A stretch of DNA of 64,000 nt, taken from contig JACQZP010000027.1 of NCBI GenBank assembly GCA_016213825.1, forward strand, positions 62,001-126,000, read 5' to 3'. This DNA comes from Acetobacterium woodii. GTDB taxonomy: Bacteria > Bacillota > Clostridia > Eubacteriales > Eubacteriaceae. Position numbers and translations under genes: made by a program. Within the stretch, counting starts at the first letter, position 1, and each line of letters opens with the position of its first letter. The notes under the pieces are model-generated. The model did not search any database. It was not told the DNA's origin and saw only the letters and a list, made by a program, of their open reading frames with translations. This document shows, one piece after another, positions 11,407 through 56,161 of this stretch.

Positions 11407-11690
11407 TAAATGAACCTCCAATTTCTAATAAATTTAAGCAGTGGTGTTGTGGATAAAGTTTTAACTTATGCACAGAGAATCTATTTTAATGTGAATAGCC
11501 AAATAAATCAAGCAAAATCTAAGAAACATTGTTGATAACTTAAAAAAGTTTTACCAACAAAAAAAGATGAAAATAGACGGAAAGTTGAAAAATATCGACA
11601 AGTTATCCCCATTTAATCCACAGAACTCCGAAATTTGTGGATTAAATGGACAATTTTCAAGAACTTATCCACATTTTCGTTGATAATGCT
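11407..11690. other. oriC DnaA-box cluster upstream of dnaA
   Basis: The gap between dnaA and rpmH has no gene. It contains perfect DnaA boxes at 11448-11456 (TGTGGATAA) and 11665-11673 (TTATCCACA). Near matches are at 11466-11474 (TTATGCACA), 11530-11538 (TGTTGATAA), 11603-11611 (TTATCCCCA), 11614-11622 (TAATCCACA) and 11636-11644 (TGTGGATTA). Two of these form the arms of a perfect 14-bp inverted repeat (11609-11622 and 11636-11649). Genes on both sides point away, as expected for a bidirectional origin. Confidence 0.85.
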
Positions 11691-11719
11691 AGTATAGCAA
11701 ATTGTGTGAAGGCTTACAA
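11691..11719 (-). promoter_or_regulatory. putative dnaA promoter
   Basis: TTGTAA and TATACT are 17 bases apart on the minus strand. Transcripts would carry a leader of roughly 280 bases across the DnaA-box cluster. Confidence 0.45.
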
Positions 11720-11774
11720 TAAAATAAAAATAAACATAAAGATTGCGAAACTTGCTCAGATTTGATAATATGAC

Positions 11775-11803
11775 TTGACATAAAATAAGCGAGATTATAT
11801 AAT
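11775..11803 (+). promoter_or_regulatory. promoter of the rpmH operon
   Basis: Perfect TTGACA and perfect TATAAT with a 17-base spacer, the best promoter in the window, as expected for a ribosomal protein gene. Confidence 0.85.
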
Positions 11804-11869
11804 TCTAGGGTAAAAGTCTTATTAGCTTATAAACAAATGAATATAAAGTATTAGTCAGGGGGTGTCGAA

Positions 11870-45064: not shown

Positions 45065-46432
45065 TTGAAAAAGAATGAAGTGATTGAATTAACGATAGAG
45101 GGGTTTAATTTCCCCGGCAAATCCTGGGGAATGCACGGCGAAAAAAAAGTCGTTATGAAAAACGGTCTGCCAGGCCAACGCGTGTTGGTCAATATTGCCA
45201 AGAAACGAAAAAAATATGAGGGCCGGATCCTGGAAGTGCTGGAAAAAGCCCCCAACGAAATTGATGCCGCCTGCGATGTGTTTGCCAAATGCGGGGGCTG
45301 TACCTATCAGAACCTTCCCTATGAAGAACAACTCAAGCTCAAAGAAAGCTACGTCTTAAACCTGTTGGAACAGGCCGGGATAGCGGACTTTGCTTATGAG
45401 GGGATTGTCCCCAGCCCGGAAGTCTTCGGTTACCGAAACAAGATGGAATATTCCTTTGGGGATAACGAAAAAGACGGCCCCCTGATGCTGGGGTTGCATG
45501 AACAGGGCAGCTTCTATAATATCGTCAAAACCGATGGCTGTAAGATTACCGACGAGGATTTCAATCAGATCCAAACGGCGGTGCTGGGATATTTTGCGCA
45601 AAACGGGGACAGCTATTTTCATAAACGCAGCCACGAAGGCTTTTTAAGACATCTGGTGGTGCGCAAGGGAAAACACACCGGCGATCTGCTGATCAATCTG
45701 GCAACCACCACCCAAGGAAATCTGGACGAAGCGGCTTTTGTCAAATGCTTGCTGGATCTGCAGCTGGAAGGCCAGATCCGGGGGATTCTGCATACCCAAA
45801 ACGATGGCATCGCCGATGTGGTCAAAGCCGAAACCGCTAAAATTCTATACGGCGAAGATAAGATTGAAGATAAGATTTTGGGACTGACCTTTGAAATCAC
45901 CAGCTTTTCCTTTTTCCAGACCAATACCTTAGGGGCGGAAAAACTCTACTCCGTCGTCCGGGATTTTGTTGGCCAGGAACAAAACGAAGTGATCTATGAC
46001 CTTTACTGTGGCACCGGCACCATTGCCCAGGTACTGGCCCCGGTTTCTAAAAAGGTGGTCGGCATCGAGCTGGTCGCCGAAGCCGTGGAAGCCGCCAAAG
46101 CCAACGCGACCAAGAACGGCTTGGACAATTGCCAGTTCATCGCTGGCGACGTGATGGTGGAGGTGGCCAACCTGCACGATCAGGCCGATGTGATTATTCT
46201 AGACCCACCTCGGGATGGCATTCATCCTAAAGCGATCTTTAAAATTCTGGATTTTAAGCCGAAGGTGTTTGTGTACGTTTCTTGTAAAGCGACATCGCTG
46301 GCCCGGGATCTGCCGTTTTTTGTGGCGTCGGGGTATGAAGTGAAGAAGGTGAAGTGCGTGGATATGTTTCCGCATACTGGGCACGTGGAGACCATAGTCC
46401 TGTTGCATCGTAAAAACGGCTATAATAAATAA
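45065..46432 (+). CDS. 23S rRNA (uracil-5-)-methyltransferase, RumA/TrmA family
   Basis: The 455-residue enzyme has an N-terminal TRAM-like region, a cluster of cysteines CDVFAKCGGCTYQNL (about 77-91) expected to bind [4Fe-4S], the SAM site YDLYCGTGTIAQVLA, the LDPPRDGIHPKA motif and the catalytic VYVSCKATSLARDL. It starts at TTG six bases after AAGGAG. Whether the target is U1939, another rRNA site or tRNA cannot be decided from sequence alone. Confidence 0.92.
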   Translation: MKKNEVIELTIEGFNFPGKSWGMHGEKKVVMKNGLPGQRVLVNIAKKRKKYEGRILEVLEKAPNEIDAACDVFAKCGGCTYQNLPYEEQLKLKESYVLNLLEQAGIADFAYEGIVPSPEVFGYRNKMEYSFGDNEKDGPLMLGLHEQGSFYNIVKTDGCKITDEDFNQIQTAVLGYFAQNGDSYFHKRSHEGFLRHLVVRKGKHTGDLLINLATTTQGNLDEAAFVKCLLDLQLEGQIRGILHTQNDGIADVVKAETAKILYGEDKIEDKILGLTFEITSFSFFQTNTLGAEKLYSVVRDFVGQEQNEVIYDLYCGTGTIAQVLAPVSKKVVGIELVAEAVEAAKANATKNGLDNCQFIAGDVMVEVANLHDQADVIILDPPRDGIHPKAIFKILDFKPKVFVYVSCKATSLARDLPFFVASGYEVKKVKCVDMFPHTGHVETIVLLHRKNGYNK

Positions 46433-46451
46433 CTAAAATATAATACGCAAT

Positions 46452-46491
46452 AAAAAAGGACATGAGAATAAATGCTTTCATATCCTTTTTT
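46452..46491 (+). terminator. terminator after the uracil methyltransferase
   Basis: AAAAAAGGACATGA pairs with TCATATCCTTTTTT with one G-T wobble. It marks the end of the core-gene segment. Confidence 0.8.
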
Positions 46492-46519
46492 ATTACTGAA
46501 TTCGATATTCTTGATCAAT

Positions 46520-46983
46520 ATAGCCATAAAGGGAAGCATAAAAAAATTCGCTACATTCCAGCTAAGACAATTGAATATAGAATGCTTAGGGTCGCGGCTT
46601 ATATGCAGGGTTAGAGTACTTCGGGACCAGTTCAATTAGGGTAGTCTAGAAATTCAAATAGAGGCTTATGGGCATACGATTAAAAGTTTTCTTATGTGAA
46701 TTTTTATTGGTGTATTTTATGACATTGGTAGTGGTTTAAGGCGAACGGGAAGAGCAGGTTTAAATGCGTTACTAAAAGAGGTAAAGTCGTTCGGAGATGC
46801 GCGACAAGGATTGAAAAAGGGGAAGAATTGTGCTCTGAATCACTGACTATAAATAAAGAGTGGATTAAGGAAAAGCTAGCTAATACAGGTGTTGGCGGAA
46901 TGTATGATGAAAATATTATAAGGGAACGGATTGAGCAGATTTGCGTTTATCAAAGCAATTTAGCTGTTAAGGGAAGAAAATGA
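46520..46983 (+). pseudogene. decayed serine site-specific recombinase
   Basis: Several frames together spell a large serine recombinase. The N-terminal part reads IRYIPAKTIEYRMLRVAAYMQG, a stop, then STSGPVQLG. A second block in another frame reads VFYDIGSGLRRTGRAGLNALLKEV (46710-46790). A third reads KEWIKEKLANTGVGGMYDENIIRERIEQICVY and ends at 46983, resembling the C-terminal end of such enzymes. Stops, frameshifts and a large central deletion are evident. It is a relic of an integrative element near the STAND gene that follows. Confidence 0.7.
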
Positions 46984-47143
46984 TGAGGAGTTATTGACTC
47001 GTTTTTAGTATTTTTAATGCCTAATATATAGATTTTAGTAAATTAATTAAGCATGAAATACCAATAATGAATTGAGATATAAAGAAAGCGTATTCCAAAT
47101 AATGTTTTTATTCGTTGTGAAAATCTTCTCATAGGGGTAAAAT

Positions 47144-47159
47144 TGATATAATAATATCA
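47144..47159 (+). promoter_or_regulatory. extended -10 promoter overlapped by a palindrome
   Basis: TGATATAAT gives an extended -10, and TGATAT-AATA-ATATCA forms a symmetric site directly over it, about 100 bases before the STAND gene. The -35 is weak. A repressor site here is possible. Confidence 0.4.
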
Positions 47160-47249
47160 TTGATGTACTTTGCGTTGAAAAAAATACATCTAATGTGCAA
47201 ATGAAATACTATGTTTGCTGGTGAAAGAAGTATGAAAGGGGGAATATGG

Positions 47250-50200
47250 TTGAAAAAATCGGATGAACGAATTCAATTTATAGCAGATTACATTTTTGCG
47301 TATGAAGAGAAAATCAAGATGCTTAACATCAACGGACTTTTTGATGCTGCAAAATTGTTCGAATTATTTGCAATTGAAGCAGGAAGCTTATACTTTGGAC
47401 AGAGGCTCAGTAATCTAAATATTGATACATATACTTACCCTTGCGTTGATTTGATTTCTGAGGATAAGCAAACTTACATACAAGTAAGTACTGTGAAAGA
47501 CATTCCTACAAAGATAAGAACTACACTTGAAAATATTAGGGATTCAAAGCGACTTGAAATTAACACGTTGACAAATGTAAAGTTTTTCATGCTTAACAAT
47601 GATAGTGTGGACAAGGTGAAAGATTATATTGGAAATGACCAGATAGGTAATATTTCCTTTGTTAAAGCAAGCGACTTAGTCACGACAAAGGATATTCTTC
47701 AAAAAGCAACAGATAATCTAGACTTTCAAATTGCCTTATACGAACTGCTTAAGAGAGAAACAGAGAGCATTAAAGATAACTCATATAAACTTCAAGAAGC
47801 TATTGAGGATAGTAAAGCCGTTGGATTAGGGAATATAGATTGTAAAATAAATAATGAGTATGAAATAGATCGAAGTGAACTTATTTCCAAGATAAAAGCA
47901 GATAACCACAATAATATTTCTATACAAGGGGGAGCTGGCAGCGGCAAGTCTGTTCTTTGCAAGAAGATTGTTGAAGAGGAATCAAACCTTATTTATGCAA
48001 GGGCAGAACGGTTTCTTGAGGAAACTGACATAAATAATATTTGGGGGTTTAATGTTAGGCAAACACTTGAATATTTAAATGACAAGCCGGTTATTTTCTT
48101 TATTGATTCTCTTGAATTTATTGCCGATAGCCGAACGAAATTAGATCTATTATGTGTTCTATTTGAATGTACGAAGAAATATCCGTCTGCAAAAACAATC
48201 GTTTCCTGCCGTACAAGTGATAAAAATGCTTTCATGAAAATCGAAAGTAATTACTCAATTTATCCTTATGAAGTGTCCGAATTAACGATATCGGAACAAT
48301 TAGCGATTGCAAAAAAATACCCCCCTATTAAAAAAATGTTAGATATGAACTCGTATACTGAACTTCTGAAATCCCCATTTTATATTAACTTGATAGTTTC
48401 AAAAATTACTGACGTTGATAACATTTCTGATGAGAATCAATTAAGAGAATATATTTGGCAACATGTAATTTGTTTAGACAACAACGAGTTTAGGAAGGTT
48501 GTTGAGTCAATAGTTTTCACTAGGGCTAAGGATTTTTCGCTTGGAGCTGCTAGCTCGGAGTACGACACAAAAATATTAAAAAGTCTAATTTCAAAAGGCG
48601 TATTGGTTAGTAACGGTAATACTGTTAGATTAAAGTACGATATTTTTGAAGATATTTGCTTTGAGCAGCATTTAGATAATGAATTTATTAAATGCAAAGG
48701 GAAGTACAATGAGTTTTTTGATGAAATTGAGACTTTTGGCAGATGTATTTATCGACGTTATCAAATTTGGATTTCGAATAAATTATTTGCAGAGACCAAT
48801 CGCGAAAAATTCTTATTTGAATTGGTTTTTTCAACTAAAATGCCGGAAGCTTGGAAAAAGCAAACTGAAATAGGTTTAGTGAAATCACGGCATTGTGGTC
48901 AATTTTTTAGTGAGTATGGACAAACAATAATTAAAAACGGTATGTTCAATGATTTTATTGAAACAACAAACTTATTCGCATTTGAAATAAATGGTTTTTA
49001 CGCAAAATTGGGCCCTTATCTTCAGTTGCGCCCAAGTGGAGAGGGCAGAGGAAGCTTAATAAGTCTAATTGTTGAAAATAAACTGTATGAAAAAGATGAA
49101 ATTTCGCGATTGGATTTAGCAAAAATCTGCTCAGATTACTCTAAATTATCCTTAAAAAAAGAAAAGACAGCTAAAGAAGTTTGCATAATATTGGAACATT
49201 TGATTGATAAATATATACTTGAAAGCGAAGAAACAAATTACTATAAATTAGATGATATAGTAAATGACTTGCTTATAACTACTTATCAAATGACAGAATA
49301 TTCTAAAGAATGGATTAAAGAATTTTGGGGTAGGTTAGAATCTTATTATAAGTGTGGAGATAGAGATAAGCAGCGTCTGGCAGAAGATATTATCGAGGAT
49401 ACTCTCAAATGTAAGCATACGAAACTAGCAGAACATTTACCGAAGGAGTTATGTAATCTGGCAGAAATGTTTTGGACATATTCTCCTAAGAAAAATCATA
49501 ATCGAGGTAACTATAGTTTTTATGAAAGAGAAAGAGATGATAGATCTTACCAGTATGGGTTAAGTGAAAAGGCAGATAAATACGAACATGGGTCAACTCG
49601 AAGTTCAGTAATTGAAGATAATTTCTTTTGCAATTTATTCAGAGAAAATTTTTGGGAAGGCTTGAATTGGGCAATTAGTTTTGTTAATAAAGCAATATCA
49701 GCCTTAGCAGGAAAACATGAAGGCGGTTTATTTACCTATGAAATTAATTTTATTAAAGATAATTTAAGAAAATCTTACATTGGTATGCCTGAAATGTGGT
49801 TAGCAACTGTGGAAGAGCACAGAATGCCCATGGTCATAAGTGATTTATTATTTTGCTTAAAAGAAGAGCTGCGCAGTGTAATAGAAAATGATGCTGTTGT
49901 AGATAAAGAAACTGCTAAATTTGCTAATAATGTCAGGAAACTTATCTACGATAAATCAAATAACATAGCACTGTTAGCAATTATTGCAGATATTGGAATT
50001 GAGTTTCGAAAAAAATTACCTGGCTATGCATTAGACTTAACAACAAATATTGATATCATTCATCACGACTTAACAAGGCAAGCATTATTGACAAAGAATC
50101 CAGTTAAAGAAATGCTTGAAAAGCAAATATTGATGACGATGGGAATGCCTTCATCTTTACTCCCAGATAGGTATAATAAAAAGAATGCTAAGCAATATGA

Positions 50201-52028
50201 CTTACTAAATTATGTTATAGATTCCCAAATTTACTATGACGAAGAAATCAAAACACTGTGTCACAGTATTTTAGACTATCTCTATACGATTGTCCCAAAT
50301 GATAAAGAGAATGCAATTAACTGCTTACAAATTCAGAAGATGGATTTGAGAACTGCTCAGGCGGTAAAAATTGATGATAACACCATAGCATTAGTTCCAA
50401 CTATCACAGGCGAAGCAGAAAAGATAACAATTGAAAATGAAAATCTAAGACAGCCTGAAAATTCAATGATATTAATGATTAAAGATTGCTCCGAAAAAAT
50501 CAGTAATAATGAGTTTACATTAAAAGATTGCATTGAGATGATAGAGTTACTGGTTGAAACAAGAAAAAAAGATATTATGCCAGAAGTTTACGATAATGTT
50601 CTTATTGGTTTTATTATAAGGGCTTTAAATGATAAGGAACTTGATGGCGATACCAGAACAAAATTTTGTAATATATGGATAAGTGGTATAGAAACTTATT
50701 TCTCAAATGGGAGTTTTATTTTTGAATATAGTTATAGTTGGGTACTATTTACTCAAATAGAAAACAATATTTGCGATGAAACAAAAAATCGGATTAAGCA
50801 ATTAATAATAGATTTGGTAATGTATAAGGGACAACATGGCGTAGTTTCAGAAATAGCACGTTATGCAAAACGATATTTAGCAACCAATGAGCAACTTGCA
50901 AAGTCAGTATTCAATACTATTGTAAAACTTGCTGAAGATGAAATGAAACATCAAAAATACAATGCTGAATATATGAAAAAACATAGAAAAAAAGAAGAAT
51001 TAGAATTTTTACCAAATAGACAGCCAAAACTCCTAGGCGTTGATTTTTATATAGAAAAAGATAAAAGAAAAAAATATAAAAGCCTACGAGGAGAAATAAT
51101 CAGAGAATATTTATTTAATAATACCAAGCTTGATTTATCAAATTTTGACTTGGATAATTATGATATAGCAACTTTATGTTTTGCTATTAATTGTGGTTTG
51201 TCTCTAAATGATGATTCTTTTGCAGTAATCGTTAAAAAATTTGTTGTGGGCATGATTAATGTGTGGAAAGCAAACCAAAAATCACATCGCTCACATGAAA
51301 TACTTGATGTTCATTCATTGTATGAAGTTATGGAATTCTTTCAAAGGGAACTTGTTGCAAGTAAGATTCGGACATCAATCGCTTTAGACATTCTTTTTAC
51401 AGAAATTGATTATTCAAAATTTACTAGAGAAACCATAGAGTTTTATCTGGACGTATTTGGATCGTTACTTGCATATTATTTTGATTCGCATAGTGACAAA
51501 GGTAACCGAGCTTATTGTGAAAATATTATTCATTCGCTAGAAGATAAGATTATAGTGATAAAAGAAGAAAGGGTGAAGGTCGAATTTTACAAATCGTTAA
51601 TATTGTCAAATACTAGGTACGGTGCCAGCGGAGATTGGAGTAAATGCCCTTCAGGGTATTCTTATCGAGATAAACAATTTTTAAATGATATATTCAGCAA
51701 ATATGGCGGATTTCATTTAAAAGAGATGCTGCATACAATTTATAAACTTCACTTAGATAAATTATTACCGGAGATACTTTTGTCAGTAAGAGATGCATTC
51801 AAGAATGCATCGTTAACAAAACTATTGAGTTCTGATACATTTGAAAAAATAGTGAGGAAGGAAAAAGCAATTGTAATACTAATGGCATCAAAAGCGTTCT
51901 TAGATTTAAGCGACAGCATAAAACAAGATGACGATTTAACAAATGCATTTGAAGAAATCTTAGAAATGCTTGTGGAAATTAATTTCGAAGAAGCGGCAAC
52001 TATTTTAGATGAATTTAGAATTCACTGA
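47250..52028 (+). CDS. SMEK-domain STAND-type NTPase, candidate antiphage protein
   Basis: The product has about 1,592 residues. Residues 1-160 (DERIQFIADYIFAYEEKIKMLN..., YPCVDLISEDKQTYIQVST) resemble the SMEK-type domain with a nuclease-like D...QxS pair. An NTPase follows with Walker A GGAGSGKS (about 226-234), Walker B VIFFIDSLEF (about 281) and VSCRTS, then a winged-helix-like KYDIFEDICFEQHLD as in NACHT/STAND proteins. About 1,050 residues of likely helical sensor follow, without a recognised domain. The TTG at 47250 follows AAAGGGGG by seven bases; an ATG at 47211 is the alternative. The gene is AT-rich, stands alone and lies next to a dead recombinase, all consistent with transfer. 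Confidence 0.75.
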   Translation: MKKSDERIQFIADYIFAYEEKIKMLNINGLFDAAKLFELFAIEAGSLYFGQRLSNLNIDTYTYPCVDLISEDKQTYIQVSTVKDIPTKIRTTLENIRDSKRLEINTLTNVKFFMLNNDSVDKVKDYIGNDQIGNISFVKASDLVTTKDILQKATDNLDFQIALYELLKRETESIKDNSYKLQEAIEDSKAVGLGNIDCKINNEYEIDRSELISKIKADNHNNISIQGGAGSGKSVLCKKIVEEESNLIYARAERFLEETDINNIWGFNVRQTLEYLNDKPVIFFIDSLEFIADSRTKLDLLCVLFECTKKYPSAKTIVSCRTSDKNAFMKIESNYSIYPYEVSELTISEQLAIAKKYPPIKKMLDMNSYTELLKSPFYINLIVSKITDVDNISDENQLREYIWQHVICLDNNEFRKVVESIVFTRAKDFSLGAASSEYDTKILKSLISKGVLVSNGNTVRLKYDIFEDICFEQHLDNEFIKCKGKYNEFFDEIETFGRCIYRRYQIWISNKLFAETNREKFLFELVFSTKMPEAWKKQTEIGLVKSRHCGQFFSEYGQTIIKNGMFNDFIETTNLFAFEINGFYAKLGPYLQLRPSGEGRGSLISLIVENKLYEKDEISRLDLAKICSDYSKLSLKKEKTAKEVCIILEHLIDKYILESEETNYYKLDDIVNDLLITTYQMTEYSKEWIKEFWGRLESYYKCGDRDKQRLAEDIIEDTLKCKHTKLAEHLPKELCNLAEMFWTYSPKKNHNRGNYSFYERERDDRSYQYGLSEKADKYEHGSTRSSVIEDNFFCNLFRENFWEGLNWAISFVNKAISALAGKHEGGLFTYEINFIKDNLRKSYIGMPEMWLATVEEHRMPMVISDLLFCLKEELRSVIENDAVVDKETAKFANNVRKLIYDKSNNIALLAIIADIGIEFRKKLPGYALDLTTNIDIIHHDLTRQALLTKNPVKEMLEKQILMTMGMPSSLLPDRYNKKNAKQYDLLNYVIDSQIYYDEEIKTLCHSILDYLYTIVPNDKENAINCLQIQKMDLRTAQAVKIDDNTIALVPTITGEAEKITIENENLRQPENSMILMIKDCSEKISNNEFTLKDCIEMIELLVETRKKDIMPEVYDNVLIGFIIRALNDKELDGDTRTKFCNIWISGIETYFSNGSFIFEYSYSWVLFTQIENNICDETKNRIKQLIIDLVMYKGQHGVVSEIARYAKRYLATNEQLAKSVFNTIVKLAEDEMKHQKYNAEYMKKHRKKEELEFLPNRQPKLLGVDFYIEKDKRKKYKSLRGEIIREYLFNNTKLDLSNFDLDNYDIATLCFAINCGLSLNDDSFAVIVKKFVVGMINVWKANQKSHRSHEILDVHSLYEVMEFFQRELVASKIRTSIALDILFTEIDYSKFTRETIEFYLDVFGSLLAYYFDSHSDKGNRAYCENIIHSLEDKIIVIKEERVKVEFYKSLILSNTRYGASGDWSKCPSGYSYRDKQFLNDIFSKYGGFHLKEMLHTIYKLHLDKLLPEILLSVRDAFKNASLTKLLSSDTFEKIVRKEKAIVILMASKAFLDLSDSIKQDDDLTNAFEEILEMLVEINFEEAATILDEFRIH

Positions 52029-52151
52029 TCTTTTCCAGCGTTAACTAATATTATTCAATTCATAAAAACGATGATAAGACGAATAACTCTATAGCTAGCA
52101 CATAAAAGCTATCGTGAAACTATGATGAAAAGTGGCTCGTAATTAATCCGT

Positions 52152-52178
52152 ATGACAAGGGGACGTTTCGTCTGTCAT
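52152..52178 (+). repeat. REP-like palindrome 1
   Basis: The 27-bp element begins ATGACAAGGGGACG, continues TTTCG and ends TCTGTCAT. Ends ATGACA/TGTCAT pair. Same family as the copies next to the RAYT gene. Confidence 0.85.
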
Positions 52179-52358
52179 ATCATGGGCAACAAATCCCACA
52201 AACTACGAGAATTATTGATAAAAAGAAAGACTATCTGAACCGATAGGTTCAACAGGAAATTGAGGGAAGTATCCTTTAATTGCTCTATACCCTGGAATTG
52301 GCGAAAATGATGATAGAGCAAGCATTGTTCATGTGAGTATTTCGGTCGTGATTTCCAC

Positions 52359-52390
52359 CCAGTCCGGATATTCATTCCGACTGGTTTTTT
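52359..52390 (+). terminator. terminator-like hairpin
   Basis: CCAGTCCGGA pairs with TTCCGACTGG (one bulge) and six T follow. Confidence 0.6.
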
Positions 52391-52408
52391 CAACCGAAAT
52401 ATTTATTT

Positions 52409-52435
52409 ATGACAAACGAAGCGTCCCTGTGTCAT
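52409..52435 (-). repeat. REP-like palindrome 2 (inverted)
   Basis: On the minus strand it begins ATGACACAGGGACG and ends CTTCGTTTGTCAT, 27 bp. It faces REP 1 across 230 bases. Confidence 0.85.
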
Positions 52436-52471
52436 TTTCCAACATTATTATATCAGGAACTTGAAGTAGGA

Positions 52472-52600
52472 ATGATTGAATGCTCTACTTGGTTTCACGA
52501 TCAAGCAAGAGAAATTAATAGAACTGTGCATTATTTAGAGCAATTTCAAGAATATGTTGATTTTTTTGAAAGTTGTTGCAATCAAAATAGAGTAAAGTAA
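52472..52600 (+). CDS. short open frame, probable gene fragment
   Basis: The 42-residue frame (MIECSTWFHDQAREINRTVH...) reads like folded protein rather than noise, with aromatic and helical content, but has no good ribosome binding site and begins just after a REP element. It may be the 3' end of a gene whose front was lost. No family is recognised. Confidence 0.25.
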   Translation: MIECSTWFHDQAREINRTVHYLEQFQEYVDFFESCCNQNRVK

Positions 52601-52833
52601 AAAGCAGTTACTACAAAAAAACCTTTATGTAGCGAAAGTATTTTGATAATGATAAAATTGTTGGACTGCACAATTTAAGTTTTTATTTGATGCTCTGATG
52701 CAGATAAACATACTGACAGAGGCTCATTTTCAAGAGAACCGTGGAATAAAATTATATATGATTTTCTATTTTAAAACATAATTAAGGAAAAATTCATAAG
52801 AAGGACCGGAATATTAACGAGAAAAAGGAAGAA

Positions 52834-54156
52834 ATGATCAAGATGCAGAGTTTTTTAAAATTTAAAAACAAAATTAGTGATATTTTAATCATTGAATATG
52901 TTTATTTTTTACAATGTATATTGTCTATATATTTGGTACTTGGGGTATCTGAGAATTATAATATTATAGGCATAATAAATATAACTGTTTTTGCGATAAT
53001 GGTGATATGCATTTTAGAGGCTTTTGTTTATTGGAATAACAATCAACATGAGATTAATAAAATAGTTTTATTTTCAAAAGTAATTCTATCTTCAATGATA
53101 ATTTGGGTATACCTCATTAACATAGGAATAATCAAAATTTATCAGCGTTTTAAAGCGATATCAAATATGGAACAGCTAAAGCCCATTGAAATAATTACTA
53201 TAATGAGCTGCTTTTTATTAATAATTATTCTAATATTATTTCATGCAAAGTATAGTGGTTTTATTGAAAAACAATGGATCTCTCTTATTTTTTGTTTGTT
53301 TCTATTAGTTTGGATTGTATTTGGATTTTTTTATTATGTAATAGAATATTACGGGGTAAGTGAATCATTTTCCTACAGTGATGGATTTGTAGGAGAAAAC
53401 AATGTAGATAGTATGAACATATTGAAAATAAATGAAATCTCTAAGAAAGAACTTATCGAATTAATAGTTCGCAAAAAAGATTATATTAATGAGAAATTAA
53501 AACTTGAAGTAAATGGTCAAATTTTGTTTTTTACAGAAGAAAAAATTGGAGAAAATTGGGGTGACTATTATTATGAAAATTATATTGATAAATATAATGC
53601 ATTTGACATAATAAATATTGAACCTATAACTATTAACCAAGGATATTTGACAGAAGATTCAGGATTTTATAATAGTGATGACTATTTGAATTTTTTTAAA
53701 AAAGACTGCCTTTGTGTAACAGTAAGATTATTTAATTCAAATGTAAATCAACTTGAAGGGGCAATATCTAAAGAAAAGTATGATTCTAATGTTGAATATA
53801 GTAATAAAGATTTCGAGGATATAGTATTACTTTTTGAAAGTGATAATTATTATAATTATTGCATAATGTCAAGTGTGTCGAAAAATCTGTTTTTAGATTG
53901 TTTGTCTGAATCAAACACACTTTTAGATAATATGATAAGTGATATTAGAATGGGCATAAAAGATTATCCTACCAGCATAATTGATTATTTATATTATAGC
54001 GGAATAATAATAACTACAGTTGGTTTTGGAGATATGACACCAATTTCGAAAGAGGCAAAGATTTTATCTAATATTGAGGCACTGCTAGGTCTAGTAATTA
54101 TGGGAATTTTTATTGCAAAGGCTTTTGATAATGTGGGAGAAAAGAAAAAAAGGTAG
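52834..54156 (+). CDS. six-TM potassium channel-like protein with large pre-pore insertion
   Basis: The 440-residue protein has five hydrophobic helices in the first 170 residues (about 17-38, 44-62, 77-98, 118-136 and 148-168), then about 200 polar residues (170-370). The potassium selectivity filter TTVGFGD lies at 394-400 and a final TM (LLGLVIMGIFIAKAF) at about 412-428. In ordinary channels the filter follows the outer helix within 30-40 residues, so the insertion is unusual and is predicted to be outside the cell. No cytosolic RCK domain is present. The gene is strongly AT-rich. Confidence 0.75.
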   Translation: MIKMQSFLKFKNKISDILIIEYVYFLQCILSIYLVLGVSENYNIIGIINITVFAIMVICILEAFVYWNNNQHEINKIVLFSKVILSSMIIWVYLINIGIIKIYQRFKAISNMEQLKPIEIITIMSCFLLIIILILFHAKYSGFIEKQWISLIFCLFLLVWIVFGFFYYVIEYYGVSESFSYSDGFVGENNVDSMNILKINEISKKELIELIVRKKDYINEKLKLEVNGQILFFTEEKIGENWGDYYYENYIDKYNAFDIINIEPITINQGYLTEDSGFYNSDDYLNFFKKDCLCVTVRLFNSNVNQLEGAISKEKYDSNVEYSNKDFEDIVLLFESDNYYNYCIMSSVSKNLFLDCLSESNTLLDNMISDIRMGIKDYPTSIIDYLYYSGIIITTVGFGDMTPISKEAKILSNIEALLGLVIMGIFIAKAFDNVGEKKKR

Positions 54157-54215
54157 TGTCAATAATTTTTCGCAAAAATGGAAACAGCCGTTTGGGAAAT
54201 AAATATGACACAGGC

Positions 54216-54242
54216 ATGACACGGGGACGCTTCGTTTGTCAT
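54216..54242 (+). repeat. REP-like palindrome 3
   Basis: The 27-bp element begins ATGACACGGGGACG and ends CTTCGTTTGTCAT. It is preceded by a half copy (ATGACACAGGC) and lies about 50 bases before the broken RAYT copy. Confidence 0.88.
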
Positions 54243-54292
54243 GGGTATCAATCTGTGATATGTTTAAAAATAATCAAGAGTTGAAATCGAAA

Positions 54293-54484
54293 ATGGAAAG
54301 ACAAGCTCGGGTTGAAAGCGCAACCGTAATTTACCATGTGATGTTGAAGGGACAGGATGGGCGTAATATTTTTCTGGATGATGCGGATCTATCTTTATTG
54401 AAAAACTGGGTAAAGCCACAGAAACCGGCGGGTTTCAATTGTATGGCTATTGTCTGATGGTTCAACCACGTTCATCTAGCTGAT
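54293..54484 (+). pseudogene. truncated copy of the RAYT transposase 5' end
   Basis: The frame starts MERQARVESATVIYHVMLKGQDGRNIFLDDAD and matches the first 55 or so residues of the intact RAYT at 54581. It then loses frame; the shifted frame still reads TGGFQLYGYCLM before stopping near the position of the HUH motif. With REP 3 upstream it is a tandem partial duplication of the REP-RAYT unit. Confidence 0.85.
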
Positions 54485-54501
54485 CAAAGTATGACAAGGG
54501 C

Positions 54502-54528
54502 ATGACAAGGGGACGTTTCGTTTGTCAT
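54502..54528 (+). repeat. REP-like palindrome 4 (left of RAYT)
   Basis: The 27-bp element begins ATGACAAGGGGACG and ends TTTCGTTTGTCAT. It has the same half-copy (ATGACAAGGGC) in front as REP 3 and lies 52 bases before the RAYT start. Confidence 0.9.
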
Positions 54529-54580
54529 ATTCGTCAATCTCTGATATACTTGAAAAAAATAACAGGAGGTGAAATCAGAA

Positions 54581-55336
54581 ATGGCAAGACAGGCACGGGT
54601 TAAAAGCACAACCGGAATTTATCATGTAATACTGAAAGGTCTGGATGGACGAAATATTTTTTTGGATGACTCGGATCGATCAATTTTTATAGAAAAGCTC
54701 AATAAAGCCAGAGAAACTGGTGGTTTTCAGTTATACGCCTATTGTCTCATGGATAACCACGTTCATCTGCTGATCAAAGAAGGCGAAGAATTAGGAACCA
54801 GTATCAAACGGATTACCGTAGGATATGTTCAATTGCACAACAATAAATACGGACGAATCGGTCACCTTTTTCAGAATCGTTTTAGCAGTGAAGTTGTCGA
54901 AGAGGAACAGTATCTAATGGCGGTGGTTCGGTACATTCACCGTAATCCCTTAAACGCAGGAATGGTTGCTCGATTGGAAGAATATCCATGGAGCAGTTAT
55001 GATAAAGTTATCCAAGCCTATCAGGTAAATTCGACTACACTTGATATTGAAATCATCAAAGATTATTTTCCGACGGCTGCAGATTTTGTTCGTTTTTCGG
55101 AGGAGGAAAATCAGGATGAATGTCTGGAAATCAATCAAAAAATCAGATGGTGTGATTCACAGCTTGCTGATATGCTGAGACAGAACAGCGAATATCAGAA
55201 TCTGGGCGAATTGTCTGTTGACAAGCGAAACCGGTTGATCAAACAGATTCAGCAGGAAACTGGCAGCAGTATCCGTCAATTGAGTCGGGTACTGGGACTG
55301 GGTAAGATGATGGTGGAACAGGCATTGAAGGGGTGA
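54581..55336 (+). CDS. REP-associated tyrosine transposase (RAYT, Y1_Tnp/IS200-like)
   Basis: The 251-residue protein starts ARQARVKSTTGIYHVILKG and has the HUH metal motif DNHVHLLIK at about 66-74, the GHLFQNRFSSE segment and RYIHRNPLNAG around the catalytic helix. A C-terminal HTH (IRQLSRVLGLGKMMVEQAL) follows. RAYTs are domesticated single-strand transposases thought to move and maintain REP palindromes. REP copies in opposite orientation flank the gene, at 54502 and at 55339 right after the stop. The ATG is chosen over a GTG four codons upstream that abuts AGGAGG. Confidence 0.9.
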   Translation: MARQARVKSTTGIYHVILKGLDGRNIFLDDSDRSIFIEKLNKARETGGFQLYAYCLMDNHVHLLIKEGEELGTSIKRITVGYVQLHNNKYGRIGHLFQNRFSSEVVEEEQYLMAVVRYIHRNPLNAGMVARLEEYPWSSYDKVIQAYQVNSTTLDIEIIKDYFPTAADFVRFSEEENQDECLEINQKIRWCDSQLADMLRQNSEYQNLGELSVDKRNRLIKQIQQETGSSIRQLSRVLGLGKMMVEQALKG

Positions 55337-55338
55337 AT

Positions 55339-55365
55339 ATGAAGAACGAAACGTCCCCTCATCAT
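55339..55365 (-). repeat. REP-like palindrome 5 (right of RAYT, inverted)
   Basis: On the minus strand it begins ATGATGAGGGGACG and ends TTTCGTTCTTCAT, 27 bp. It starts two bases after the RAYT stop and mirrors REP 4. Confidence 0.85.
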
Positions 55366-55399
55366 ATGTTTATACGAAAAAAGAAGGGGCTGTGCTGTT

Positions 55400-55840
55400 A
55401 TGAAGAAATACATTAGCATTATAATTTCAGCTTTACTTATTATCTTAGCTATTTACACTGTAAATTATATTTCAAATCCGGAACGTCAAATAAAAAAATT
55501 TGTAAGTGAAAATAGTAAAGAATTGGTGACTATTGCGGAATCACATCTAAATTCTGATACAACAATAGAAACATATAAGGACGTAAAAGTTGAGCAAGTT
55601 TTTAGTGGGAACAATGAAATTGTGCAGTTTTTTTACGATGGGAAAGGAATTGCGCCAGCTTCTAAATATTATGGTTTTTATTACTCACCAGATGACGTTC
55701 CGGCAGCATATCAAAATACGAATTTCAACCTTGCTTATGTATCGGATAATGAATGGAAATGGTCAGAGGACGGTACAGATAATGGTGGTCGAACAATAAG
55801 AATTATAGAGAACTGGTTTTATTATGAAGCATGGTTTTAG
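55400..55840 (+). CDS. hypothetical secreted or membrane-anchored protein
   Basis: The 146-residue product has an N-terminal hydrophobic helix (YISIIISALLIILAIYTVNYI) without a lipobox cysteine. A soluble, aromatic-rich domain follows (FFYDGKGIAPASKYYGFYYSPDDVP, WKWSEDGTDNGGRTIRI). This pattern occurs in small Firmicutes proteins of unknown function. It lies between REP elements as a single gene, with an AAGGGGCTG ribosome binding site. Confidence 0.7.
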   Translation: MKKYISIIISALLIILAIYTVNYISNPERQIKKFVSENSKELVTIAESHLNSDTTIETYKDVKVEQVFSGNNEIVQFFYDGKGIAPASKYYGFYYSPDDVPAAYQNTNFNLAYVSDNEWKWSEDGTDNGGRTIRIIENWFYYEAWF

Positions 55841-56161
55841 AATGGCAAAATCTAATTTGGTAAAACATGCCTATTCGAATGAAGACGTTTCAGGATGTTT
55901 TGAGCCTTGAGCGAAACGGAAGTATGACGTCGGGGCGTTTCTTTTGTCATGCCTAATCATGATGATTATATATTTAACGAATGAGTGCTTGATTAAAATG
56001 ACATGAATTGCTATGGTATAATTAATTTTTCAAAATTATTAATACATAGTCGCAAAGACGAAGATTTAATAGTCACAGATAGTGATTTAATTGCATTTAA
56101 GATTGCGACATAATACTTATTAATTAATAGTAAGTTGCTTTGCATAAGGAAGGGTTTAAAG
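55841..56161. other. intergenic stretch with one REP
   Basis: It contains REP 6 (55924-55950) and an AT-rich remainder with GTATAATTAA near 56015-56024 that may serve as a -10 for the next gene. No coding frame is supported. Confidence 0.5.
55924..55950 (+). repeat. REP-like palindrome 6
   Basis: A diverged 27-bp copy: ATGACGTCGGGGCG at the start and TTTCTTTTGTCAT at the end. Confidence 0.75.

Follow-up and report, generated by a model that had tools for sequence, protein, structure and literature searches.

What does a solitary gene of about 1600 codons do in the genome of Acetobacterium woodii? The question is raised by an open reading frame of 1605 codons, with an ATG start, at positions 47211..52028 (forward strand) of a 64,000-nt stretch of DNA (the window). 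A preliminary description had read it, correctly as to its open frame, as one very large gene and, from architecture and context, as a candidate antiphage system. We propose, with a probability of about 80%, that it encodes an Avs4-type antiphage receptor that works as a single protein with a SMEK effector, belonging to a divergent, mainly clostridial subfamily and predicted to cut DNA when triggered by a phage portal protein. An antiphage role as such is very likely and now stands on firmer ground than context, through homology of the sensor to Avs4 and of the SMEK domain to a nuclease of the SPARDA type. Residues are numbered from the ATG at 47211 unless a TTG start is stated, and L-, G- and P-numbers are our labels for loci, genomes and proteins, respectively.

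Sensor, effector and proposed trigger

By profile and by fold, the C-terminal region (aa 488-1605; 48672..52025, forward strand), where about 1,050 residues had been described as lacking a recognisable domain, is a sensor homologous to that of Avs4, an antiphage receptor of solved structure. The sensor matches EcAvs4 (PDB 8dgf) along its whole length, both by sequence profile and by fold (VIA-align), at 14-17% identity. The PADLOC Avs4 model, which comes without a curated cut-off, matches aa 204-1081 (E 4.9e-38, 128 bits; model positions 175-1061 of 1570). No match to the PADLOC models for Avs1, Avs2, Avs3 or Avs5 was found at E<=1, distant kinship with these still being possible, and SeAvs3 and other Avs structures are absent among the best 50 VIA-align matches listed for the sensor, although they may rank lower.

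The sensor is preceded by a STAND NTPase (about aa 204-413; 47820..48450, forward strand, with an approximate 3' edge), located by the PADLOC match and by conserved motifs. The reported P-loop is indeed present, with a Walker A motif (GGAGSGKS, aa 240-247) and a Walker B-like strand (VIFFIDSLEF, aa 294-303), and across 28 aligned rows neither the GxxGxGK core nor any acidic residue of the FIDxxEF strand varies. These rows are the window protein and 27 of the 37 loci obtained by scanning 84,980 species genomes with two short patterns, 37 being a lower bound (L014, L017, L026, L027, L028, L034, L038, L040, L044 and L045 were left out as partial, truncated or broken). The KYDIFEDI motif (aa 475-482; 48633..48656, forward strand) was also found as described; it aligns with HDIYEEW of EcAvs4 and probably marks a winged-helix region.

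The N-terminus had been called SMEK-like, and the SMEK_N models of both Pfam (aa 24-166, E 8.6e-23, 81.2 bits, curated cut-off 27) and NCBIfam (aa 21-113, E 4.3e-10, 39.3 bits, cut-off 30) match it. With SMEK_N, the STAND NTPase and the Avs4 sensor each matched, the searches with SMEK and Avs profiles agree with the effector-NTPase-sensor plan proposed earlier. The effector domain (47280..47708, forward strand) contains the nuclease-like pair VDL...YIQVST, with D80 and Q91, and its putative catalytic residues E51, D80, Q91 and K101 are invariant in 20 of 20 SMEK rows. A profile search matched PDB 26bh, a SMEK-APAZ protein of Kordia jejudonensis (4.4e-11), in which the E-D-Q-K residues align; a single-sequence search of the PDB gave no credible match, matches coming with profiles only. 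At the level of sequence, the SMEK N-terminus is thus a homologue of the nuclease domain found in a defence protein of the short-Argonaute kind. The earlier suggestion of a nuclease-like N-terminus thus holds by sequence and only moderately by fold: the fold resemblance to nucleases is weak to moderate, and plain Foldseek of the SMEK model gave nothing significant. A structure match to EcoP15I chain A was not counted as a nuclease, as its length suggests that it is probably the methylase subunit.

We consider it likely that the SMEK domain cuts DNA, as a putative PD-(D/E)XK-like nuclease. It might instead cleave RNA or act as a non-catalytic part in oligomerisation, in line with the weak fold match and with a third motif, QVS(T), that departs from the classical ExK in having its lysine on the helix that follows. 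This we hold to be unlikely, given the invariance of E, D, Q and K and their alignment with the Kordia domain, for whose complex DNA cleavage is reported (PMC12205087).

The phage portal is our preferred, moderately probable trigger, because the protein is kin of Avs4 and the EcAvs4 structure 8dgf is portal-bound. The helical sensor (about aa 488-1605) would recognise a conserved structural protein that the phage makes while infecting the cell; as with EcAvs4, this would most likely be the portal. STAND domains with bound ATP would then assemble, and this assembly would join the N-terminal SMEK domains into an active PD-(D/E)XK-like nuclease (E51, D80, Q91, K101). Once activated, SMEK would cut both the cell's DNA and that of the phage, irrespective of sequence, and the cell would die or stall before phage release (abortive infection). 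For the window protein we infer the portal trigger, the assembly, the DNA cleavage and the abortive infection alike.

An Avs4-fold antiphage receptor with the same SMEK nuclease output could also have its sensor turned to another phage protein (capsid, packaging or early), an alternative that we regard as possible and clearly less probable. It is favoured by the low identity of the sensor to EcAvs4 and by the sensor being the less conserved part of the protein: among SMEK rows, mean identity to the window protein is 0.44-0.50 from residue 476 onward, whereas SMEK reaches 0.62 and the NTPase 0.61. A further point in its favour is a stretch within the sensor (50835..51285, forward strand; aa 1196-1345 counted from the TTG) with 14.9% nucleotide divergence from the copy in the congener G002 versus 3.1% elsewhere, nearly five times the rest, a value reached in none of 200 permutations (made on a coarser grid). 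On account of this difference, allelic exchange of the sensor segment is probable.

Relatives and their effectors

The 37 loci are mostly from clostridia, with a few from Acholeplasmatales and other Firmicutes-like metagenome-assembled genomes (MAGs) and one on a short contig of a Prevotellaceae MAG, which may have been binned wrongly. Reading frames are interrupted in L027, L044 and L045, by decay or sequencing error. Among 398 genomes of the phylum, a single-sequence search found matches in two (the gene's own genome and G283) and a profile search in five (the own genome, G211, G069 and two with short NTPase-only matches), G283 not being one of these. In the own genome, the open reading frame is the sole match of its kind and carries the sole SMEK_N match. 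Viral contigs yielded no relative when scanned with the single sequence and one partial relative (L047) when scanned with the alignment; the one match from a phage-protein search, on an unverified human-gut scaffold without annotation, was not called a phage gene.

In a tree of NTPase and sensor, 29 family rows split from four Avs4 rows with full support, at branches that the program warns are long. At E<=0.01 the PADLOC Avs4 model matches 14 of the 28 family members and misses the other 14, and Avs4 may therefore be under-counted in Firmicutes. Another PADLOC model, Aga_REase-PNTD1-PNTD2, was matched by 11 of the 28, presumably through SMEK.

SMEK_N is present in 20 of the 28 aligned rows, and the other eight begin with an unrelated stretch. 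Class II (nine rows: L024, L030, L031, L035, L041, L042, L043, L046 and, in addition, L004) has a helical N-terminus of about 130 aa in place of SMEK, in most cases with MDLxxAIGLLSSxVTLEEAGRSW. Identity of class II to the window protein is 14% over the SMEK columns and 44% over the NTPase; judging from the alignment, a different effector is found on a retained sensor among the relatives. The class II N-terminus gave no Pfam match (one of eight scanned alone) and no relative in a protein search of plasmids; possibly it is a new effector or adaptor. Class II forms one group of moderate support (87/90, rising to 100/100 when L024 is left out). This group lies within a larger one of 14 (99/100), in which SMEK rows are found as well. 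Because class II nests within the SMEK rows when the tree is rooted by the distant Avs4 rows, SMEK would be the effector that was replaced.

Coding sequence, spread and genomic setting

Although the reading frame stands, its ATG start probably does not: the true start is likely the TTG at 47250, giving a SMEK-Avs4 coding sequence of 1592 aa (47250..52028, forward strand). The TTG is favoured by a Shine-Dalgarno-like AGGGGG (47237..47242, forward strand) 7 nt before it, by the same TTG start behind a G-rich Shine-Dalgarno in L012, L013 and L028 (GTG in L016) and by the onset of DNA identity with L012, L013, L028 and L016, which starts only at 47235-47237. The gene is under purifying selection, with a ratio of nonsynonymous to synonymous substitution rates (dN/dS) of about 0.21 against the 94% identical congener copy and of 0.19 against an 82% identical copy of Ruminiclostridium cellobioparum; the open reading frame is therefore more than a product of chance. 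It is AT-rich, as described, with 30-32% GC over 47-53 kb versus 42-48% in windows over 41-47 kb; GC is 36-47% from 54 kb on, and 52-55 kb is also low (28-32%).

The gene has spread horizontally. It occurs in two of 61 related genomes, its own and that of the congener G002, whose contig appears to be that of locus L010; copies that are 82% (L012), 76% (L013) and 70-72% (L016) identical to the window gene lie in genomes whose best homologues of the neighbouring gene rumA are 35, 45 and 33% identical, respectively. Homologues are thus not limited to a vertically inherited core locus. The DNA common to the hosts is the gene plus a few tens of bases (47235..52062, forward strand), with ends that vary by host (47206-52062 in L010, 47235-52064 in L012, 47237-52063 in L013), that is, the gene alone. 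No conserved partner was found among the neighbours of 31 loci, which agrees with its description as solitary. Neighbour clusters present in at least three of these loci, labelled by reading, were integrase-like (8), ABC-type (4), serine-recombinase-like (4) and four others (3 each). Ten proteins from the neighbourhoods and the hotspot described below include type I and II restriction-modification, AbiLi/PDC-M12-like and DISARM-like proteins; defence neighbours exist, but enrichment is not implied because the ten were picked by eye.

The gene lies in an island (46393..56150) at the 3' end of rumA that is absent from G001 and G007, where the alignment over rumA stops at 46392 and the next one picks up at 56151 after only 16 bp, leaving out the intervening 9.76 kb. 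The dead recombinase reported beside the gene is backed by decayed serine-recombinase pieces (46700..46980, forward strand) with homology to pieces at L012 and L028. The window piece 46732-46980 shares 42% identity over 67 aa with the truncated end of a serine recombinase that lies immediately upstream of the gene in L012, an end that matches Zn_ribbon_recom (Pfam); the two window pieces searched have no Pfam match. Recombinase ends lie upstream of the gene in the window, L012, L028 and L041. An island location, with remnants of recombinases or integrases alongside the gene in several hosts, could also suit a non-antiviral STAND protein, for example one for plasmid or conjugation exclusion or a mobile-element addiction gene, and short Argonaute systems with other effectors are reported to act on plasmids and phages (PMC10810196, PMC12205087). 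We consider this very unlikely, as the sensor is of a type known to bind portal and the neighbours include no gene conserved as a partner, an antitoxin for instance.

The G002 copy sits on the opposite side of the homologue of the sequence at 56151; therefore, the two copies entered separately or moved. Of 19 genomes of the genus, 18 have rumA at nearly full length, and G006 gives weak partial matches only. The 3' end of rumA in the genus (L071-L083) is an integration hotspot with changing cargo: empty, an integrase-like gene (G004, G009 and G013, labelled by reading), a resolvase, a kinase-helicase and a PLD protein between rumA and the same downstream genes (G010), or a type II methyltransferase-like gene and a HATPase gene (G017). 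At the reversed locus L075 (G003), a 374-bp repeat of the rumA 3' end (11479-11852) lies beyond an island of chemotaxis-like genes (by reading).

The same island holds a further lone, AT-rich gene (52834-54156), whose C-terminal part matches an ion-channel domain (PF07885). It was rejected as a second component, as in G002 a Y1-transposase-like open reading frame follows the Avs4-type gene at 263 bp instead and the shared DNA ends near 52062. The palindrome-like 18-mer GGGACGTTTCRTYTGTCA has six sites in the window (52160-55949) at up to 3 mismatches versus 0.09 expected, all surrounding a gene for an IS200-like (Y1) transposase and a fragment of that gene. At no more than 1 mismatch, it is present in 17 of the 19 genomes from the genus. 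In G002, inverted copies (contig C223, 11698 and 16588) bracket the Avs4-type gene. These sites look like repetitive extragenic palindromic (REP) elements with their transposase. A wider picture, which we offer as speculative and rather doubtful, is that of a deep Avs4 subfamily whose effector, sensor allele and genomic location each change independently: a short-Argonaute-type nuclease would have been lost once to an unknown helical domain, and the gene alone, which in one genome is flanked by inverted REP-like repeats next to a Y1 transposase, would form a cassette that moves round one hotspot and swaps sensor pieces, possibly tracking phage portals.

Significance and comparison with known systems

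The analysis connects an unannotated gene of 1600 aa and 37 similar loci with a receptor whose structure is solved and whose trigger is known; it predicts that portal proteins of clostridial phages activate a SMEK nuclease. It also provides a set of relatives in which differing effectors sit on one sensor, and one nuclease that would serve two unrelated ways of sensing, by guide RNA and by protein shape. In the literature searched, SMEK, STAND and phage occurred together in one paper only, on papain-like proteases. Avs1-Avs4 are reported to recognise terminase, portal or Ksap1 and to cleave phage and host genomes (PMC12931631).

Like EcAvs4 (AVAST type 4; E. coli plasmid copy P0001 in L005), the window protein is encoded by a single gene on mobile DNA and combines a STAND NTPase with the same helical sensor. 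It differs in its effector, SMEK, as EcAvs4 has an N-terminus of its own, for which no Pfam family is listed and which has been called Mrr-like. The kind of effector varies among Avs proteins, and EcAvs4 assembles as a tetramer. On the PADLOC Avs4 model, canonical Avs4 proteins (EcAvs4, G211 and G069) score 2022-2360 bits, unlike the window protein with its 128.

With SMEK-APAZ and Mrr-APAZ proteins of short Argonaute systems (SPARDA), such as that of Kordia jejudonensis, the window protein shares a homologous nuclease domain and its E-D-Q-K residues. Unlike in SPARDA, no APAZ or Argonaute family was found for it in the profile libraries at E<=1, no Argonaute partner was seen, and its SMEK domain is wired to a STAND receptor, whereas that of SPARDA is wired to a guide-RNA sensor.

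The Avs4-type proteins of Calothrix (L007; 1422 bits), Haliscomenobacter (L006) and G283 (P0007; the latter two 522-545 bits), which complete the six scored with this model, have the same NTPase and sensor by PADLOC Avs4 and carry other N-termini on the one scaffold; that of Haliscomenobacter matches parts of the PADLOC Avs2 and LmuA models and is protease-like by reading. Unlike these, the window clade forms a separate branch. Also close is the class II sister clade (L043, L030, L004 and others), placed within the SMEK clade and, in the case of L004, about 39% identical over NTPase and sensor, which differs from the window protein in carrying its helical N-terminus where the latter has SMEK.
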